Below, one piece after another: positions 7,047-14,945 of a stretch of 46,137 bases of DNA. This DNA is from Candidatus Competibacter sp. (lineage in GTDB: Bacteria > Pseudomonadota > Gammaproteobacteria > Competibacterales > Competibacteraceae): positions 1-46,137 of the forward strand of contig JARSSH010000065.1 in assembly GCA_029624815.1 (NCBI GenBank), read 5' to 3'. How positions within the stretch are numbered: the stretch's first letter is position 1; the number at the start of each line of letters is the position of its first letter. Both the position numbers and the translations under genes were made by a program. The notes beneath the pieces are model-generated. The model searched no databases. It was not told the origin of the DNA and was given only the letters and a program-made list of their open reading frames with translations.

Positions 7047-7349
7047 TTAGCCGCGATCGTTAAAACCGCTCGCGATGCTCGACAGCATTCTGGAGATGGC
7101 GGTTTCACCAACGATCCTGGAGTTGGCCGTTTCATTTGTGGCCGGCTCCCGGTCGTTAAAACCAATTGCCGTCACCGTCGTGTCGGCATACCGGACGCCC
7201 GGCGCGCTCGGCGTGTTTTGGCTCGATCCGACATTGCTGATGGCGTTCGTATAGGAACTGCCGTGATTGAAAGGCTCCGCGCGGGCGGTTGCGCTTAGGG
7301 TCAGGCCGGAAGCCAGAACCAACAAGGCGGTCGTGATGGTCTTGTTCAT
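7047..7349 (-). CDS. Small secreted protein of unknown function
   Basis: A 100-residue protein. MNKTITTALLVLASGLTLSATARA is a clear Sec signal peptide with cleavage after ARA. The mature part is about 76 residues, rich in Ser, Asn and Thr, has no cysteine, and contains the short repeats IGFNDRE and ASGFNDRG at its end. I do not recognise a family. AGGAG lies eight bases before the ATG. A sigma-54 type promoter is placed about 55 bases upstream, and the next gene upstream encodes a sigma-54 activator, so expression is probably switched by that regulator. No stable operon partner downstream. Confidence 0.7.
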   Translation of the reverse strand: MNKTITTALLVLASGLTLSATARAEPFNHGSSYTNAISNVGSSQNTPSAPGVRYADTTVTAIGFNDREPATNETANSRIVGETAISRMLSSIASGFNDRG

Positions 7350-7696: not shown

Positions 7697-9673
7697 TCAG
7701 GCCGGGAATTTAGGCTTGCGGATGTTCAGTTTCTGCATGCGGGAACGCAAGGTGCTGGGATTGAGATCCAAAATTGCCGCCGCGCCTTGCTCGCCCTCGA
7801 TCACCCAGCGAGTACGCTCCAGCACCTTAAGAATATAGGCGCGCTCCATGGCTTCGAACGAACCGAACTGCTCTTGCTCAGGAGCATCCGCCGCCGGCTG
7901 ATCGTCCAAACGCAAATCCAGCGCGTTGCCGATTTCCAACAGGGAACCTCGGACCAAGATGGTGGCGCGCTCGATAACGTTTTGCAGCTCCCGGATATTG
8001 CCCGGCCAAGAGTAACGCAGTAGTTGCTCGTATGTCCGTTGGGAGAGATCGTGGACCGTCTTGCCCATCTTCTTTGCAAACTTGTCCAGGAAATGTCGCG
8101 CCAGCAGAGGAATGTCGGTCGGACGCTCGCGCAGCGCCGGCAATCGAATGGGAAATACATTCAACCGGTAATACAGATCGGCGCGAAAAGTCCCGTCCTT
8201 GACCATCCGGGCCAGATCGCGATTGGTGGCCGCCACCAGCCGTACATTGACTTTCAAGGTCTGCGTGCCGCCGACCCGCTCGAATTCCTGATCCTGCAGC
8301 ACCCGCAGCAACTTGGCTTGGGCGCTGGCGGTCAGCTCGCCGACTTCGTCCAGGAACAGGGTGCCACCATCGGCCAATTCGAAACGGCCCTTGCGTTGGG
8401 CGGTCGCGCCGGTGAACGCGCCTTTTTCGTGACCGAACAATTCGCTTTCCACCAACTCGCCCGGCAAGGCGGCGCAATTAACATTCACAAACAGCTTGTC
8501 CCGCCGTTCACTGAGATCATGTATGGTGCGGGCAATGACGCTTTTGCCGGTGCCGGTTTCTCCGGTCAGCAACACGGTGGAATCGGTGGCCGCCACCGGT
8601 TCGGCTTGGGCGAACACCGCCTGCATGGCCGGCGAGTCGCCGACGATGTGGCCGGGCGTTTGCCGGGTCTTGATCTCTTCGTGCAGATACAGGTTTTCCA
8701 ATTGCAACTGCTGGAGCGTTTCCGCGGAACGCCAGCGTTCGGTGACGTCGCGCAGAATCAGGGTGTAGAAATGGCGACCGCTCATCTCCAGCGGCGACAG
8801 CGTGGCCTCGACCAGGAATTCCTCGCCGTCGCCACGCCGGGCGGTCAGTCCCTCCGGCGCCCACAACTGCCGGGAGTTGACCGTGGCCGGCTGGACCGCC
8901 AGACAATAGCCCTTAAGCAGGTTGGCAAAACGCTTGGAAAGAAACGGCTCGAACGAACAACCGATGACCTCCGCCGCCGAACGGCGGAACACCTTTTCGG
9001 CGGCCGGGTTGAACAGGGTAACCCGCTGCTCGGCGTCGAGGGTAACGATGGCGTCCATGGCGCTGGCCAGCACGCTGGCCAAACGTTCCTCGCTCTGGCG
9101 TAGCGCCTGCTCGGCCCGCTTGCGCTCCAGCTCCACCCGGGCCCGGGCCGCGAAAATCTTCAGCAGCGCCATGCCGCGAAATTCCTTGGCCATGGGCTGA
9201 TCGTGGAACACGGCCAGGTGACCCATCATTTCGTTGCCCGACTCCGACACCAGCGGGACGCCGAAGTAGCTCTCGATCCCCATGTCCCGGAGTTCCGGAT
9301 GATGAGGGAACATCTCGTAAACCTTGTGGGTGTAATAGACCGTTTCGCCGCGGATAACCACTTCGCAAGGGGTGCCGTCCAGATCGAATTCGATGTTGTC
9401 GATGAACTGGCCGTCGAACCGGAACGCCAGGGTACGCACCCGGATCTTGCTTTCCAGCAACTCGCTCACGAAGGCGTAGCGCACACGCAGCGCCAGGGCC
9501 AACTCCCGCACCAGCGCGTAAAAGAAGTCCGTGCCGGTGGCGGTGGCGGTTCCTTCGACGATGGCATGTAGGGCCAAGTGCATGGACTCGTCATGTCCGT
9601 CGGCTGTATTAAGACCGGACTCGTCTCCCAAGGCGAGGGGTTCACTCAAGGATTGCGCGATCGTTCCATTCAT
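7697..9673 (-). CDS. Sigma-54-dependent transcriptional activator (GAF-PAS-AAA+-HTH)
   Basis: A 658-residue enhancer-binding protein. Residues about 30-185 look like a GAF sensor domain; about 190-315 a PAS domain ([18 protein letters not shown]...FNPAAEKVF), then a short coiled linker. The AAA+ domain (about 345-575) has Walker A GETGTGKS, the sigma-54 contact loop [15 protein letters not shown], Walker [13 protein letters not shown] and the sensor [10 protein letters not shown]. The C-terminal Fis-type helix-turn-helix is [17 protein letters not shown]. Layout is FhlA-like, so it probably responds to a small molecule or redox signal rather than a phosphorelay. GAGGGGG precedes the ATG. A sigma-54 promoter lies downstream at 7404-7419, its most likely target. 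Confidence 0.93.
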
Positions 9674-9744: not shown

Positions 9745-10374
9745 TCACCGTGCGACGCCCCAAAGCGCTTCGAGCCGTTGATCCCGGCCGCAAGAGTATC
9801 GATAGAATTTATAGCGCACCGGGTTCTTTCGATAATAGTGCTGGTGGTAGTCCTCGGCTGGATAAAAGGTCGATGCCGGTTCGATCGCCACCACCACCGG
9901 TTGCTGGAATCGCCCGGATTGATCCAGCGCCTGCTTGGATTCCTCGGCCAAGCGCTTTTGTCCGTCGCCGTGATGGAAAATCGCCGGGCGGTACTGTTGG
10001 CCCCGGTCGCAAAACTGTCCCCCGGCATCGAGCGGATCGATGTTACGCCAAAAGATATCCAGTAACTGAGCATAGCCGATCCGGGCGGGATCGTAGACGA
10101 TCTCCACCGCTTCGGCGTGTCCCGTGCCGCCGGCCGAGACTTCTTCGTAGGTCGGGGTCGCCTTGCGGCCACCGGTGTAACCGGAGATCACCGAAATCAC
10201 GCCGGGCAACGACGCGAACGGCGGTTCCATGCACCAGAAACAACCCCCAGCGAAGGTGGCCCTGGCGAGTTCGCCGCCGGTGGCGGGCCGATCGGCGCCG
10301 CGAACCGGACCGAACACGGCCAAAAGCAGCAGGCCACCGATCGGAAGTAACCGCCAGATATCGGAAATTCGCAT
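9745..10374 (-). CDS. msrA: Exported peptide methionine sulfoxide reductase A
   Basis: A 209-residue MsrA, reducing methionine-S-sulfoxide in proteins. The catalytic motif is FAGGCFWCMEPPF, with the reactive Cys in GCFWC near residue 45, followed by VISGYTGG and GHAEAVEIVYDP, and AEDYHQHYY near the end. An N-terminal hydrophobic segment (IWRLLPIGGLLLLAVFGPVRGA) suggests export, so it would act in the periplasm or be membrane-anchored. Start at 10374 has GGAGG seven bases upstream; the ATG at 10380 directly abuts it, and further upstream codons come from a repeat. Its position between the sigma-54 regulator and the buf operon suggests envelope oxidative-stress repair. Confidence 0.93.
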   Translation of the reverse strand: MRISDIWRLLPIGGLLLLAVFGPVRGADRPATGGELARATFAGGCFWCMEPPFASLPGVISVISGYTGGRKATPTYEEVSAGGTGHAEAVEIVYDPARIGYAQLLDIFWRNIDPLDAGGQFCDRGQQYRPAIFHHGDGQKRLAEESKQALDQSGRFQQPVVVAIEPASTFYPAEDYHQHYYRKNPVRYKFYRYSCGRDQRLEALWGVAR

Positions 10375-10397
10375 CGTCATCCCTCCGCCGAGAAACG

Positions 10398-10424
10398 CCC
10401 TCTCTCCCTTCGGGGAAGAGAGGG
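10398..10424. repeat. Palindromic repeat, possible terminator
   Basis: CCCTCTCTCCC and its near-complement GGGGAAGAGAGGG form an inverted repeat around TTC, in the gap between msrA and the upstream secreted-protein gene. It is a typical dispersed intergenic palindrome and could stop or attenuate the minus-strand transcript. Confidence 0.55.
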
Positions 10425-10447
10425 TTTGCACGGCTTTTGGCCCATGC

Positions 10448-10945
10448 CTACTTCATGTCCCAACCGGCGGTGTCCCAGTAGCCGGGAGGGTTGGTGTCCT
10501 GCATGGTTTCCGATCCCGCATTGGCGACCATCAGCACCAGTTCCGACCCGCCCGTCACCGTCTTGCCGTACCCTTCGACAGTCACTCCTTCGGGAACCTT
10601 GAGCCCGATCACCGCATGGTTCCGCACTTTGTCCGCCGACATGGCGAAGTACTGGGAAGCGTTCATAAAGCTCGACATGAACGCGCTATTCTTGGCCTGC
10701 TCCTGGGCATAGGCGGGTTCCAGCAGTTTGATGCTGGAGCCGGGCACGGTCACGATGGAGCCTCCCTTCATCACCTCGCCCTTCTTGTTGGTGACGGTGA
10801 CCCCCTCAGGCACGAGAAACCGATACATCATGTCCGATTTTCCCAAGCCGTTTGGGAAACTTTTCATATTGAACCCTTGGGCGTAAACGGTTGTGCCACT
10901 CAGGAACAACGCCAGAACCGCGATCGTAATGCGCAACAGTTTCAT
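10448..10945 (-). CDS. Secreted protein of unknown function
   Basis: A 165-residue protein with the signal peptide MKLLRITIAVLALFLSG...VYAQ. The mature part has two related segments, VPEGVTVTNKKGEVMKGG and VPEGVTVEGYGKTVTGG, each followed by a hydrophobic strand, suggesting two copies of a small beta module; between them is a Met/Ala/Ser-rich helix region. I do not know the family. Start: GAGG is nine bases before the ATG at 10945; ATGs at 10951 and 10960 are also in frame but too close to it or beyond it. It is followed by the exported MsrA and preceded by the buf operon, all on the same strand, so it may belong to the same envelope-stress unit. Confidence 0.7.
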   Translation of the reverse strand: MKLLRITIAVLALFLSGTTVYAQGFNMKSFPNGLGKSDMMYRFLVPEGVTVTNKKGEVMKGGSIVTVPGSSIKLLEPAYAQEQAKNSAFMSSFMNASQYFAMSADKVRNHAVIGLKVPEGVTVEGYGKTVTGGSELVLMVANAGSETMQDTNPPGYWDTAGWDMK

Positions 10946-11146
10946 CTTCATTGACCTCATCGATAGATATAGGTGATTTCAGAGCCGAGGCAACCGCCTC
11001 GCCCTCCAACGCGGGCCGCGATCTCCCGTCGCGGACCAACGCCACGAATCCCCGACGGCCGATCCCTGTCGGTGGGGGTTGCCGCTCCATCCTCTTGGCC
11101 AGCACCGAATTGCCTGGCGATTGCCGGCTTCCTTTATGCTGGTCGC

Positions 11147-11722
11147 CTACCACAATCCCTCCTTGACATACAGCTTGCCCAGCAGGGTGGCTTGCAGGAG
11201 GATGGCCTTGAGCAAGGCGTATTGCATGCGCTCAATTTCAGTGTGATCGTTGCCGCTGGCGACGAGAAACGGACGCGCCGTCATTACCAGAGGGAAAACC
11301 AAGGCAACGACATAGCGAAATCCGGGCAGTGGCGCCGAAACCGGTTGCGCCGGCGAGTTCATCTCCACTTGCCGCAGCCAGGGAGGATCTTGGGGAAACA
11401 CACAGGTTTCGAACAACCACTGCCGGAACCAGCGACGTAAAGTAACGGAATCGTCTACCGTACCTCTTTCCCAACACTCGCCGCGCAGCACGGCCAATTC
11501 GGCGGCCAAAGCGGGATAGGCCGCCACCATGCCCAGCAGCCGATCCAGGTAATCGTCGGTCTGCCCTTTCAGAATTCGCCAGACCTTGCGCAGCGCGCGC
11601 GCATCGTCGGCCGAAAAAAGACCGATACGCCAAAGCAGATCAATGTCGTTCCGATCAGGAAACCAGGGCGGAACGGCCGCGGCGGTCGCTTCGTCGCCGG
11701 GGGCCTGGGCCAGATGGCTCAT
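11147..11722 (-). CDS. Helical protein of the buf operon, possibly protoglobin-like
   Basis: A 191-residue, soluble, mostly helical protein with no signal peptide. The early segment DIDLLWRIGLFSADDARALRKVW, about 25 residues in (written here in part: LLWRIGLFSADDA), resembles the start of protoglobin or globin-like sensor domains, but I cannot name a proximal heme histidine with certainty. Later hydrophobic segments ALVFPLVMTARPFLVASG and ALLKAILLQATLLGKLYVK are amphipathic helices. It starts 36 bases after the DoxX-like gene, with AGAGGA upstream, and is the last gene of the buf operon. A heme- or redox-linked role in making the peptide is a guess; otherwise a conserved unknown. Confidence 0.6.
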   Translation of the reverse strand: MSHLAQAPGDEATAAAVPPWFPDRNDIDLLWRIGLFSADDARALRKVWRILKGQTDDYLDRLLGMVAAYPALAAELAVLRGECWERGTVDDSVTLRRWFRQWLFETCVFPQDPPWLRQVEMNSPAQPVSAPLPGFRYVVALVFPLVMTARPFLVASGNDHTEIERMQYALLKAILLQATLLGKLYVKEGLW

Positions 11723-11758
11723 GGTGACGTAATCCTCTCCGGTATGGGGCGGAATCGG

Positions 11759-12316
11759 TCAGCGACGGATCAGCCGATCGATCAGATGGTCCATGGACAG
11801 TTTGCCGGGGCCGTGGCAAAGCGTGATCAACAGCAGCAGACCCCATACCTGATGCTGCGCCAGGCCAGCGTCGTTCAGGTCCGGATAGGACAGGACCGCC
11901 ACGATATTGAATACGAACAGCACCAGCGCGGCGTAGCGCGTCCCCAAGCCCAGGAACAGAAACACCGGCAGCAGCAGTTCCGTCGCCGTGCCCAGATAAG
12001 CCGCTAAAGCGGACGGCAGCAGAGGCACGTGATACTCGTACTCGAACAGGGTGAATGTGGTCTCGGTTGGCAGCAGGCTGAGCGGATAGCCGAAGCTGTG
12101 TCCAAACAGGGTGAAGCTGCCGCTCACGGTCTTGGTCAGCCCAGAGCCGAAAAAGGCGGCGGCGACCCAGTAACGGGCCAGGAAATCGGCGACCGGCGTG
12201 AGCAGATCCGCGGCCTTATGGAACAGGGTGTTGGCTTTGCATAGCAGGGGGGCGGTTCTTGCCCACCAGGAGCGTTGGAGCGTGGGGTTGGCGTAAGCGT
12301 CGGCGACGGTCATCAC
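11759..12316 (-). CDS. DoxX-family membrane protein (BufD-type)
   Basis: A 185-residue integral membrane protein of the DoxX family with four predicted transmembrane segments: around FLARYWVAAAFFGSGLTK, ALAAYLGTATELLLPVFLFLG (split), YAALVLFVFNIVAVLSYP and VWGLLLLITLCHGP. The family is associated with redox and oxidative-stress functions. DoxX proteins are regular companions of MNIO/bufferin genes. The start is GTG at 12316 with AGGAG seven bases upstream; an ATG follows directly. It lies 15 bases after the bufC stop, so it is in the same operon. Confidence 0.85.
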   Translation of the reverse strand: MMTVADAYANPTLQRSWWARTAPLLCKANTLFHKAADLLTPVADFLARYWVAAAFFGSGLTKTVSGSFTLFGHSFGYPLSLLPTETTFTLFEYEYHVPLLPSALAAYLGTATELLLPVFLFLGLGTRYAALVLFVFNIVAVLSYPDLNDAGLAQHQVWGLLLLITLCHGPGKLSMDHLIDRLIRR

Positions 12317-12331
12317 GGGAGTTCTCCTCGG

Positions 12332-13129
12332 TCAGTGGTTGGAAAATGGTGAATCGGGCAGATCGAAAGCGGTCACGACACCGCGCGCGACATGGCCGCC
12401 AAAGCGGGCTGGCAAATCAAAATCCGGTTGCGCGGCCATGGCCCGCTCGCAGGCGGCGGCGAAAGCGCAACCCTCGGAAAGGGCGCGCAACAGATGGAAT
12501 TCCCCATCCTCCAGGGGTTGAAATTCGATATCCAGGCTCTCGGGCCGGAACACCAGCAGCTTGACTCCACCCTCGGCCAAATCCACGGGGGTGGCGTCGC
12601 CGGAATCCTCTTGGTTGCTCCGCCAGATGCGCAGGATGGGGAAGAACGATTCCAACAGGCGCGCGGCGGGATGCAGCCGAAAGCGCAGGTCACCCTGGCG
12701 CGCGGCCGGCACGCTCGCCAGCACCATGGGATCGAGCGGCGCATGGCGGGCCGCGTGAAAAACCTGGTGATAGCTCCATTCCAGCCGGGCGACATCGGGT
12801 AAATACGCCAGTCCGGCGGCTGGCTCGAACGATTCCAGAAATTCGGGCAAGAGCCCGCCGTACTCGTGCAGATCGCCCGACCGGGACGGGTGGCGAGCGA
12901 TATACTCGGCGGCGGCGTAGCGGAAGAATCCCTCGCCCACCAGCCGGCGCACCACCGGGTAAACCGCTTCCAGCGCTCCCGTCAAACCCAACCGGCTGTT
13001 GTTGCGGTAGACCTGCAAGCGACGCTCGCCGGATAAACCCGCCGCGCGGATGTGGCGCTCGAAACCGCCGTCGTCGCCGTCCAGCACCGCCGCCGCGAAG
13101 CGCCGTTGCAATTCATGCAGCGCGGGCAT
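12332..13129 (-). CDS. bufC: BufC/HvfC-like RiPP partner protein (DUF2063)
   Basis: A 265-residue protein of the DUF2063 family, long annotated as a putative DNA-binding protein. MNIO studies show that such partners bind the precursor peptide and help the enzyme. The N-terminal helical domain carries RLQVYRNNSRLGLTGALEAVYPVVRRLVG (in part: VYRNNSRLGL, AVYPVVRRLVG), GFFRYAAAEYIARHPSRSGDL and the tail of the domain with YLPDVARLEWSYHQVFHA. The C-terminal half is a mixed domain. It overlaps bufB by 17 bases, which shows translational coupling and fixes the start. It would act in the cytoplasm with BufB on BufA. Confidence 0.88.
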   Translation of the reverse strand: MPALHELQRRFAAAVLDGDDGGFERHIRAAGLSGERRLQVYRNNSRLGLTGALEAVYPVVRRLVGEGFFRYAAAEYIARHPSRSGDLHEYGGLLPEFLESFEPAAGLAYLPDVARLEWSYHQVFHAARHAPLDPMVLASVPAARQGDLRFRLHPAARLLESFFPILRIWRSNQEDSGDATPVDLAEGGVKLLVFRPESLDIEFQPLEDGEFHLLRALSEGCAFAAACERAMAAQPDFDLPARFGGHVARGVVTAFDLPDSPFSNH

Positions 13130-13988
13130 GGCGTTCCTCCAAAATGGCGTCGGCCCGGTGTGCTTCCTTCACCAGCACCGCCAGCTCGGGCAGGTCGGTA
13201 TCCCACTCGATCAGGGTGGGCGTGGGACCGAAGCGTTGCACCGCCTGGCGGTACAGCGCCCAGACCGCCGGACAAACCGGCTGGTTATGGGTATCGATCA
13301 GAATCTCGCCATCCTCGAAGCGGTTCACGGTAAATCCAGCCAAGTGGATTTCCTGGACGGCGTGGCGGGGAATCGCCCGCAGGTAGGCGCTGGGATCGAA
13401 GCCGTGATTGCGCGCACTGACGTAGATGTTGTTGACATCCAGCAGCACCCCGCAGCCGGCGCGCTCGGCCAGTTCGGCCAGAAAATCCCACTCCGAAAGC
13501 GCCGATTCCACGAATTGCAGGTAGCTGGAAACGTTCTCGATCAGGATTTGCCGACCGAGCATGTCCTGTACCTGGGAAACCCGCGCGACCAAGTGATAGA
13601 GCGCTTCCCGCGTGTAGGGCAGCGGCAACAAATCGTTCAAATAACGCCCGCCGACCGAACCCCAGGAGAGATGCTCCGATACCAGCGCCGGCTCGAACCG
13701 CTCGATCAGATGCTTGAGCTTGGCCAAATGCAGCTTGTCCAACGGATCGGTCGAGCCGATCGACAGACCGACGCCATGCAGACTGAGAGGGTAATGAACC
13801 CGAATCCGCTCCAGATAATCCAGCGGCTTGCCGCCCGCTCCAAAGTAGTTTTCGCTGTGCACTTCCAGCCAGCCCACCGGTGGTCGGGTTTCCAGTACCG
13901 CATCGTAATGCTCGGCCCGCAGGCCGATTCCGGCGCGAACCGGAATCGAACCGGGGCCAAGCCGGGATGTTGCCGGCTTGGCGCTCAT
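13113..13988 (-). CDS. bufB: BufB, MNIO-family (DUF692) RiPP-modifying iron enzyme
   Basis: A 291-residue multinuclear non-heme iron-dependent oxidative enzyme. TIM-barrel motifs appear in order: LEVHSENYF, LSLHGVGLSIGS, LVSEHLSWGS, LIENVSSYL, LLDVNNIYVSARNHG, EIHLAGF, IDTHNQPV and LIEWDTDLPEL, with the His, Asp and Glu iron ligands in place. MNIO enzymes of bufferin and methanobactin-like clusters convert peptide cysteines into heterocycles using oxygen. Start at 13988 follows GAGGAA, 11 bases after bufA; a longer reading frame upstream only shadows bufA. It overlaps bufC by 17 bases. Confidence 0.93.
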   Translation of the reverse strand: MSAKPATSRLGPGSIPVRAGIGLRAEHYDAVLETRPPVGWLEVHSENYFGAGGKPLDYLERIRVHYPLSLHGVGLSIGSTDPLDKLHLAKLKHLIERFEPALVSEHLSWGSVGGRYLNDLLPLPYTREALYHLVARVSQVQDMLGRQILIENVSSYLQFVESALSEWDFLAELAERAGCGVLLDVNNIYVSARNHGFDPSAYLRAIPRHAVQEIHLAGFTVNRFEDGEILIDTHNQPVCPAVWALYRQAVQRFGPTPTLIEWDTDLPELAVLVKEAHRADAILEERHARAA

Positions 13989-13999
13989 CGGGAATTTCC

Positions 14000-14266
14000 T
14001 CAAGCCTTCGGCTTCAGGCTGCCGCCCACGATTTTGTCGCAGGTGCCCTTGGGGACGTACACCCAGGAATCGCCCTGACCGTCCTTGCTGGCCTGGCCGG
14101 CGCAAGCGTGGGCATTGGTCTGGCAGTCGTTCTTGCCGGCCTTGACGATGCCGTAGCACTTTTCGGCGCCCTTTTCCTCGGCGGCGGTGGCCTGACCGGC
14201 GGCGGCGACCAGACCGAGGGCGAAAACACTGGCCAAGGCCGAATTCACGAGGGTTTTGCTGTTCAT
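14000..14266 (-). CDS. bufA: BufA1-type bufferin precursor peptide (DUF2282)
   Basis: An 88-residue RiPP precursor. Residues 1-29 are an unusually long signal peptide ([20 protein letters not shown]) that also acts as leader in this family. The core has four cysteines at 37, 48, 55 and 76 in the contexts EKCYGI, KNDCQTN, HACAGQ and KGTCDKI, the bufferin-1 pattern. Known bufferins are copper-binding peptides in which the two central cysteines become 5-thiooxazole rings and the outer two form a disulfide. Here that is inferred from family and from the adjacent bufB and bufC. AGGAG is placed ten bases before the ATG. Probably exported to the periplasm to buffer metal. Confidence 0.92.
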
Positions 14267-14402: not shown

Positions 14403-14945
14403 ATTAATTAAAATACCATACCAATCAATATGATATTGCGCGATTGATGATTAGGAGCAATTGGACGGGCTTTCACGAAGCCACGCTATTTCACGGTTGC
14501 CGCGACATGGCGCGGTACTGGTTCCCGGCGGACTTCGGGAAGGGGAATAGAGGGTTGGCGAGGAAAAACCACGGGTTTTCAGCTCAGCGGAGCGACGGGG
14601 CCGACGGCCCGAACACGGTCAGCCGCCGTGGCTGTGGGTGTTTCGGTCGCTGACGGCGACGCCGTCACCATCGCCGGGAGCGGCAAGGAACAGGTCGAGC
14701 GCGTACTTGAGGGGTTTAACGGGCGGATGCGCGATGGCTGTGCGTTTGCCTCCGATACGGCCCACCCGAATGGTGGAAGCAGCGAGAGTGGCGGCGTTAT
14801 ACGCGTGGGCGATCAAGCTTCAGGCAGTCCGGCCCCGTCATACAGGTCCGCCAGCCGGACGGTCAGGCGACGGTCAGAGCAAACGGGGTTTGAGTTGAAC
14901 GAACATGGCAAGACATCTCCTAACCGAAACTCGCGATCGGCAACC
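14403..14945. other. Gap between the buf operon and the S49 peptidase
   Basis: No convincing gene. The first 45 bp are AT-rich, suitable for the buf promoter. A small hairpin AAAACC-ACG-GGTTTT lies at about 14565-14579. A minus-strand frame at 14619-14816 (65 codons, TTG start) reads like protein (for example TLAASTIRVGRIGG) but has no ribosome-binding site or recognised relative; it could be a gene remnant. Confidence 0.4.

Follow-up and report, generated by a model that had tools for sequence, protein, structure and literature searches.

Bufferins, a large class of modified peptides that bind metals, were described only recently. As described for the family, BufB and BufC (BufBC) make thiooxazoles on the central cysteines of the precursor BufA, and the peptide binds periplasmic copper (PMC12452194; PMC13097082). 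In the bufferin landscape paper, genes for sigma factors and anti-sigma factors are named for Buf1 clusters, and additional conserved genes are given as extremely rare in bufferin clusters (PMC12452194). A Bordetella bufferin operon is reported to be under BvgAS, and the sigma-54 passage in that report concerns another gene (PMC12188742). Here we describe a bufferin operon on a 46,137-nt stretch of Candidatus Competibacter sp. DNA (contig JARSSH010000065.1, positions 1 to 46,137; hereafter the window) in which bufA, bufB, bufC and doxX are followed by a fifth gene, encoding a protoglobin homologue that lacks the heme-ligand segment, and by the gene of a sigma-54-dependent activator.

The explanation that we find best, and hold to be rather likely, is that of a sigma-54-controlled bufferin operon with a heme-free globin as an accessory protein or signalling adaptor. 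The hosts belong to the glycogen-accumulating organisms of activated sludge. Coordinates follow window numbering, all genes discussed lie on the minus strand (Table 1), and the window genome (G000) comprises 3.6 Mb. Protein families were assigned with Pfam and NCBIfam models, each against the library's own cut-off. Seven open reading frames had been proposed in an earlier reading of the letters without database searches (the sequence-only reading), and all were present at the positions given, on the minus strand. That reading had also recognised a bufferin cluster in a four-cysteine bufA, an MNIO-type bufB, bufC and DoxX, which Pfam matches above cut-off bear out. BufA has a signal-like N-terminus in translation and cysteines at positions 37, 48, 55 and 76, and BufB matched the NCBIfam model MNIO_BufB with 413.7 bits (cut-off 310). 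The NCBIfam models BufA2, HvfC and HvfX matched bufA, bufC and doxX, respectively, all under cut-off, and no NCBIfam model matched the fifth protein. From bufA to the fifth gene the operon covers 3.1 kb (14266-11147), with 11 nt between bufA and bufB, a 17-nt overlap of bufB and bufC, 15 nt between bufC and doxX, and 36 nt between doxX and the fifth gene. Judged by its gene content, the locus is almost certainly a true bufferin operon of the Buf1 type, from a bacterium of the Competibacter type.

The distribution of the fifth gene was assessed in 39 genomes of the same bacterial family, from which 20 wider loci were fetched, 18 of them with a full-length fifth gene. Full-length fifth proteins were found in 18 of the 39 genomes, in 19 copies (two in G012), and one further genome (G034) held a fragment only. 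Immediately before the fifth gene stood bufC and doxX in the window and in all 18 sister loci in which the fifth gene is full-length; bufB, complete or partial, was seen in 17/18 and bufA in 15/18, the misses lying at contig ends. As the bufC-doxX-fifth gene order recurs in 18/18 further loci, it is not due to chance. BufB of at least 79% identity occurred in 18/39 family genomes, the very 18 in which the fifth gene is full-length; the remaining bufB copies of the family were 49-66% identical, and the fifth gene was beside none of them. The association between the fifth gene and this BufB clade is thus exact within the family, whose genomes are related and not independent. The sequence-only reading had made its case depend on a globin fold of the fifth protein and on conserved co-occurrence with bufABC, and the latter was borne out by the sister loci.

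Outside the family, the fifth gene was absent from 20/20 of the nearest BufB clusters. Profile A1, searched against overlapping samples of 369 class and 398 phylum genomes with at most 8 first-look candidates scored per genome, returned only the window genome and a canonical protoglobin from G359. In the GTDB contig collection, alignment A1 retrieved 18 loci, of which 13 were titled Competibacter, Contendobacter or Competibacteraceae, 4 proteobacterium only, and 1 cyanobacterium. The cyanobacterium-titled record (L059, JAAUTD010000038.1) carries the cluster, and its title is probably a wrong binning label.

Several other candidate origins and relatives were rejected. Protoglobins do not appear to be a general bufferin partner: among the PF11563 and BufB matches listed for the 369 class genomes, the two were paired within 5 kb only in the window genome. 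Sixteen further globins were considered (14 from class genomes, L135-L148, with L081 and L082), 11 of which gave any score with the family profile; 10 of these were non-significant and poorly aligned, and only L136, from G359, was kept. A Cupriavidus plasmid protoglobin (L154) was of the canonical type, and no window bufferin protein matched at E<=1 in the 8.5 kb around it. A mobile or phage origin was dropped: 3 viral stretches matched a pattern and 0 were confirmed, and the 7 plasmid matches were only 25-33% identical and of canonical type.

A gene of such narrow range could be a passenger, a captured protoglobin that is decaying and has no role in the bufferin pathway. It is confined to one bacterial family among the genomes sampled, its nonsynonymous divergence (dN) exceeded that of bufA, bufB and doxX in 5/5 comparisons with all values computed, and remnants of it were found in two genomes. 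However, reading frames are open in 19/19 full-length copies with position kept, 45 of 201 alignment columns are invariant, and the remnants sit where no bufferin gene was found nearby. The ratio of nonsynonymous to synonymous divergence (dN/dS) of the fifth gene was 0.16, 0.28, 0.30, 0.25 and 0.28 in five of six comparisons; the sixth gave 0.41, from a pair with a dS of only 0.03. The fifth gene is under purifying selection and not decaying, and we regard the passenger explanation as very improbable. The bufC ratios were computed with L022 dropped for its frame-shifted copy; in that locus the bufC match runs in two frames at 10707-10714, a frame-shift or sequencing error.

The suggestion of the sequence-only reading that the fifth protein is protoglobin-like agreed with Pfam, with a sequence search of the PDB and with the predicted fold. 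By phmmer, residues 25-189 matched the Methanosarcina acetivorans protoglobin (MaPgb) at 9.3e-17. An AlphaFold2 model from 15 sequences reached a predicted local distance difference test score (pLDDT) of 66.3 and a predicted template modelling score (pTM) of 0.64. When this model was compared with known structures, 14/14 Foldseek matches at E<=0.001 were protoglobins, and protoglobins filled the first four rows of VIA-align (best Z 13.2, root-mean-square deviation 4.9, 154 aligned). A globin fold is therefore predicted, and well supported by these comparisons; the assignment to the protoglobin branch is by sequence.

We then compared the residues to which roles have been assigned in MaPgb, namely His120(F8), Trp60(B9), Tyr61(B10), Phe93(E11) and position Cys101(E20) (PMC4457829). 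The canonical set comprised eight proteins, seven of them in the alignment (six of plasmid records and the G359 protein) and the eighth, the Cupriavidus sequence, compared by eye; residue counts were taken from 15 aligned fifth proteins and motif losses from all 19 full-length copies. The alignment has a gap across the F helix. The EIGxRH-type segment with the proximal His(F8) was present in 8/8 canonical protoglobins and 0/19 bufferin-linked copies, and the same counts held for the distal Trp(B9)-Tyr(B10) pair. V, L, M, I or T stands at B9; B10 is Leu in 14 proteins and Phe in 1; and the G8 position, Phe in protoglobin, is Leu in 15/15. Two Trp and the Phe(E11) and Cys(E20) equivalents do not vary, and no His is invariant.

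A heme/O2 sensor was our first idea from the Pfam protoglobin match, and it was dropped after the alignments showed ligand loss; the heme/O2 component proposed in the sequence-only reading likewise fell with the two ligand motifs. It could still be argued that a different residue, for instance the invariant Cys107, ligates heme and that the protein is a sensor of O2, NO or redox state. The predicted globin fold, the Phe(E11) and Cys(E20) equivalents retained in 15/15 and the His close to the lost segment in some members are in keeping with this. Against it stand the loss of both the His motif and the Trp-Tyr pair in every copy, the change of Phe(G8) to Leu, the lack of any invariant His among the 15 aligned proteins and the occurrence of Cys(E20) also in canonical proteins that bear the His (5/7 aligned). 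We consider heme binding of this kind unlikely, and the pattern of residues indicates that the fifth protein is in all likelihood heme-free.

The activator gene and a sigma-54-type promoter, neither mentioned in the sequence-only reading, are more constant features of the cluster than MsrA. The activator was matched in 18/18 sister loci (four clipped by contig ends) and lay about 1.6 kb or less from the fifth gene in 17/18, being 5.8 kb off in L032; rpoN is present in the window genome. Promoters could be compared in the window and 13 loci, with L023, L031, L033, L038 and L039 left out for too little upstream sequence. A strict TGGCA-N6-TTG motif was found 98-259 nt upstream of the bufA start in 14/14 of these copies, against a background of 0.008 per 300 nt over both strands of 27 loci. 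The consensus site of integration host factor (IHF), WATCAANNNNTTR, was present in 10/14 promoter blocks about 42 nt upstream of the -24 box. Eleven of the 14 blocks have, at about -118 to -124, an exact inverted repeat belonging to a tandem palindrome. The 31-nt pattern of this tandem palindrome, allowing 3 or fewer mismatches, had a single place in the 3.6-Mb genome (the reverse match overlaps it), and a control pattern had 0. The tandem palindrome is a likely upstream activator site, and sigma-54 control of the operon is highly probable. The strict promoter motif was found in 0/7 family clusters without the globin gene, L073 included.

Promoters were also compared in the 20 nearest non-family clusters, where many bufA starts were taken from the end of a tblastn match, so that the 300 nt searched may be shifted by some codons. 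All three clusters with an activator-like gene (L117, L129 and L131) have TGGCAC-N5-TTGC 84-100 nt before bufA, compared with 1/17 of those without such a gene in the fetched stretch (L116). These promoters are partly independent support for sigma-54 control as read from the motifs, and such control of bufferins may extend beyond this bacterial family: other families seem to have the circuit too, with textbook promoters in their bufferin clusters.

The window genome holds a second bufferin cluster (L072, G000:C16:14000-27000). Both clusters have bufA, bufB, bufC and doxX, and the BufB of L072 is 54% identical. Unlike the window cluster, L072 continues with an extracytoplasmic function (ECF)-type sigma factor and an RskA-like protein (RskA_C 28.4 bits, cut-off 29.4), and no protoglobin gene was found there, nor a sigma-54 motif in the 700 nt upstream of bufA. 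L072 is immediately preceded by a masked stretch. From their gene content, the two bufferin clusters of one cell appear to be under two control logics. A third arrangement is seen in L073 (G023), which runs bufA-bufB-bufC-doxX-activator with nothing between doxX and the activator. The simplest reading of these gene orders is that the activator was present first and the globin gene was inserted later.

In the mechanism that we propose, a stress signal would lead the GAF-PAS activator to bind the tandem palindrome and to drive sigma-54 transcription through bufABC, doxX and the fifth gene. BufBC would, as in the known family, convert the central cysteines of BufA to thiooxazoles, and exported BufA would chelate periplasmic copper; DoxX, again as in the known family, would support this at the membrane. 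The fifth protein would be a heme-free globin of the cytoplasm that acts through contact with other proteins: it would serve as a signalling adaptor linking DoxX or the bufferin machinery to the activator, or else assist BufBC. The adaptor role is preferred because the fifth gene stands between doxX and the activator gene, because the ECF-type cluster of this genome lacks it, and because RsbR offers a precedent by analogy. The non-heme globin domain of RsbR is described as serving the stressosome and as being contacted in Listeria by the membrane protein Prli42 (PMC6614362). That the fifth protein is an adaptor to the activator or to DoxX, its partner being inferred, is put forward tentatively. 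With a shade more reserve we suggest that a heme-free protoglobin might inform its own sigma-54 activator of the condition of DoxX or of how far BufA has matured; such a relay would close a feedback loop that differs from the ECF control of other bufferin clusters.

Nearly as likely as the adaptor, and likewise tentative, is a role as a BufBC helper. The fifth protein would then be a cytoplasmic maturation factor with BufB, BufC or the precursor as its binding partner; until the thiooxazoles have formed, it would delay BufA export or supply iron, electrons or copper. Its gene lies inside the biosynthetic operon, 36 nt after doxX, keeps that place behind doxX in the window and all 18 sister loci, and tracks one BufB clade exactly; with no signal peptide seen, the protein should share the compartment of BufBC. 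In contrast, the fifth gene is missing from L072 and from all 20 near non-family clusters, and BufBC are given as the modifying proteins of BufA (PMC12452194).

A number of observations weigh against the explanation of a sigma-54-controlled operon with an adaptor globin. The -12 element is GA or GG and not the consensus GC in 13/14 family promoters. Among the non-family clusters, L116 has the promoter and no activator on its 5.6-kb contig, which ends 1.1 kb behind doxX; the L117 activator match is split into two parts that lie 3 kb apart in different frames; and the activator-like match lies 3.5 kb before bufA in L129 and between bufC and the bufA-doxX pair in L131. Within the family, L073 has a related activator (GAFSGA variant) beside bufABC-doxX and no strict motif within 700 nt before bufA. 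As the fifth gene is absent from L073, L117, L129 and L131, an adaptor role would not be general. The model of the fifth protein is only of moderate confidence (pLDDT 66.3, pTM 0.64), and in VIA-align other globins (Z 12.1-12.8) were tied with the protoglobins, 50 rows spanning Z 12.1-13.2. A stray His occurs within or close to the lost segment in some members, and a small-molecule ligand may occupy the old heme cavity. Operon expression, binding and BufA modification are deduced here from the genes.

The genes between the fifth gene and the activator are less constant. A secreted protein and a signal-peptide MsrA on the same strand downstream had been named in the sequence-only reading, and both frames are present, with 186 nt between the fifth gene and the secreted protein, 16 nt from there to msrA, and 71 nt from msrA to the activator. 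The secreted 170-aa protein was matched in 5/18 sister loci, a secreted EF-hand protein (about 79 aa, two EF hands) stood behind the fifth gene in 10/18 (L026, L027, L028, L029, L030, L032, L033, L035, L036 and L039), and neither was found in 3/18; the two never occurred together in the 18 loci. A similar GFNM stretch opens both mature proteins in several members. MsrA was matched in 9/18 sister loci; the L027 match has stops, and the one in L028 covers only 25 residues. MsrA and the secreted 170-aa protein are thus optional to the cluster, and the metal and oxidant defence unit suggested earlier is plausible in the window genome and is not a fixed association.

The secreted 170-aa protein had no Pfam or NCBIfam family above cut-off and a poor predicted model (pLDDT 57.8). 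It contains 13 Met and two VPEGVTV repeats, and together with the neighbouring exported MsrA it might act as a methionine sink. The intact gene of this protein was also found beside remnants of the globin gene in two loci, at 9058-9871 of L040, with no bufferin genes in the 18.2 kb fetched, and at 7792-8653 of L041, where the remnant has stops and no bufferin genes were found in 11.6 kb. G036, the genome of L041, carries an intact cluster at another place, and G034, that of L040, only a more distant bufB. A further secreted protein, of 100 aa and without a family, is encoded at 7047-7349 (minus strand) of the window, and its relatives occur near the activator in L026, L031, L033, L034 and L036.

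Table 1. Genes and promoter elements of the bufferin locus (window numbering)
Feature	Position	Strand	Evidence or remark
Tandem palindrome, two CCGCG-N6-CGCGG-type units, second imperfect in window	14485..14515	-	conserved in aligned promoter blocks
IHF-like site, degenerate in window	14426..14438		window copy misses strict consensus
Sigma-54 -24/-12-like promoter TGGCACGGGGTTTGAA	14378..14393	-	-12 element GA instead of GC
bufA, DUF2282 bufferin precursor, signal peptide	14000..14266	-	Pfam DUF2282 4.4e-25, 87.9 bits (cut-off 22.4)
bufB, MNIO enzyme	13113..13988	-	Pfam MbnB_TglH_ChrH 1.7e-113
bufC, DUF2063 partner protein	12332..13129	-	Pfam DUF2063 3e-25, 88.7 bits (cut-off 27.2)
doxX, membrane protein	11759..12316	-	Pfam DoxX 1.2e-12, 48.7 bits (cut-off 23.6)
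Fifth gene, 191-aa protoglobin homologue without heme-ligand segment	11147..11722	-	Pfam Protoglobin 9.5e-7, 29.4 bits (cut-off 25)
Secreted 170-aa protein, optional	10448..10960	-	matches in 5/18 sister loci
msrA, optional, N-terminal signal-like stretch	9745..10431	-	Pfam PMSR 2.2e-62
Sigma-54-dependent activator, GAF-PAS-AAA-HTH_8, GAFTGA intact	7697..9673	-	Pfam; alignment

No paper on bufferins with a protoglobin or with sigma-54 was among the matches listed, and the main text of the landscape paper makes no mention of globin, sigma-54, sigma54, enhancer or RpoN (PMC12452194); in both cases supplements may hold such associations. A fifth gene fixed in one BufB clade, together with a sigma-54 circuit, offers handles on the signal that induces bufferins and on the roles of DoxX and of accessory proteins. 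If the relay to the activator were true, a free-standing protoglobin without heme would have been recruited as a dedicated regulator of the copper-buffer pathway of a ribosomally synthesized and post-translationally modified peptide (RiPP).

Compared with the Buf1 (DUF2282) clusters as described in the landscape paper, the window cluster has the same signal-peptide four-Cys precursor, MNIO enzyme, DUF2063 partner and DoxX (PMC12452194), and differs in adding a heme-less protoglobin and a sigma-54 activator. The fifth protein shares with MaPgb the predicted fold and the equivalents of Phe93(E11), Cys101(E20), Gly62, Trp96 and Trp109, whereas the His120(F8) segment is missing and Trp60(B9) and Tyr61(B10) are replaced; it offers a test case for a globin fold retained after heme loss. 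Like the globin domain of RsbR, which is described as acting in stress signalling via protein contact, the fifth protein would have a globin fold free of heme. However, the RsbR globin is fused to a STAS domain and the fifth protein is free-standing and of the protoglobin type, and the likeness between the two is one of functional analogy only.

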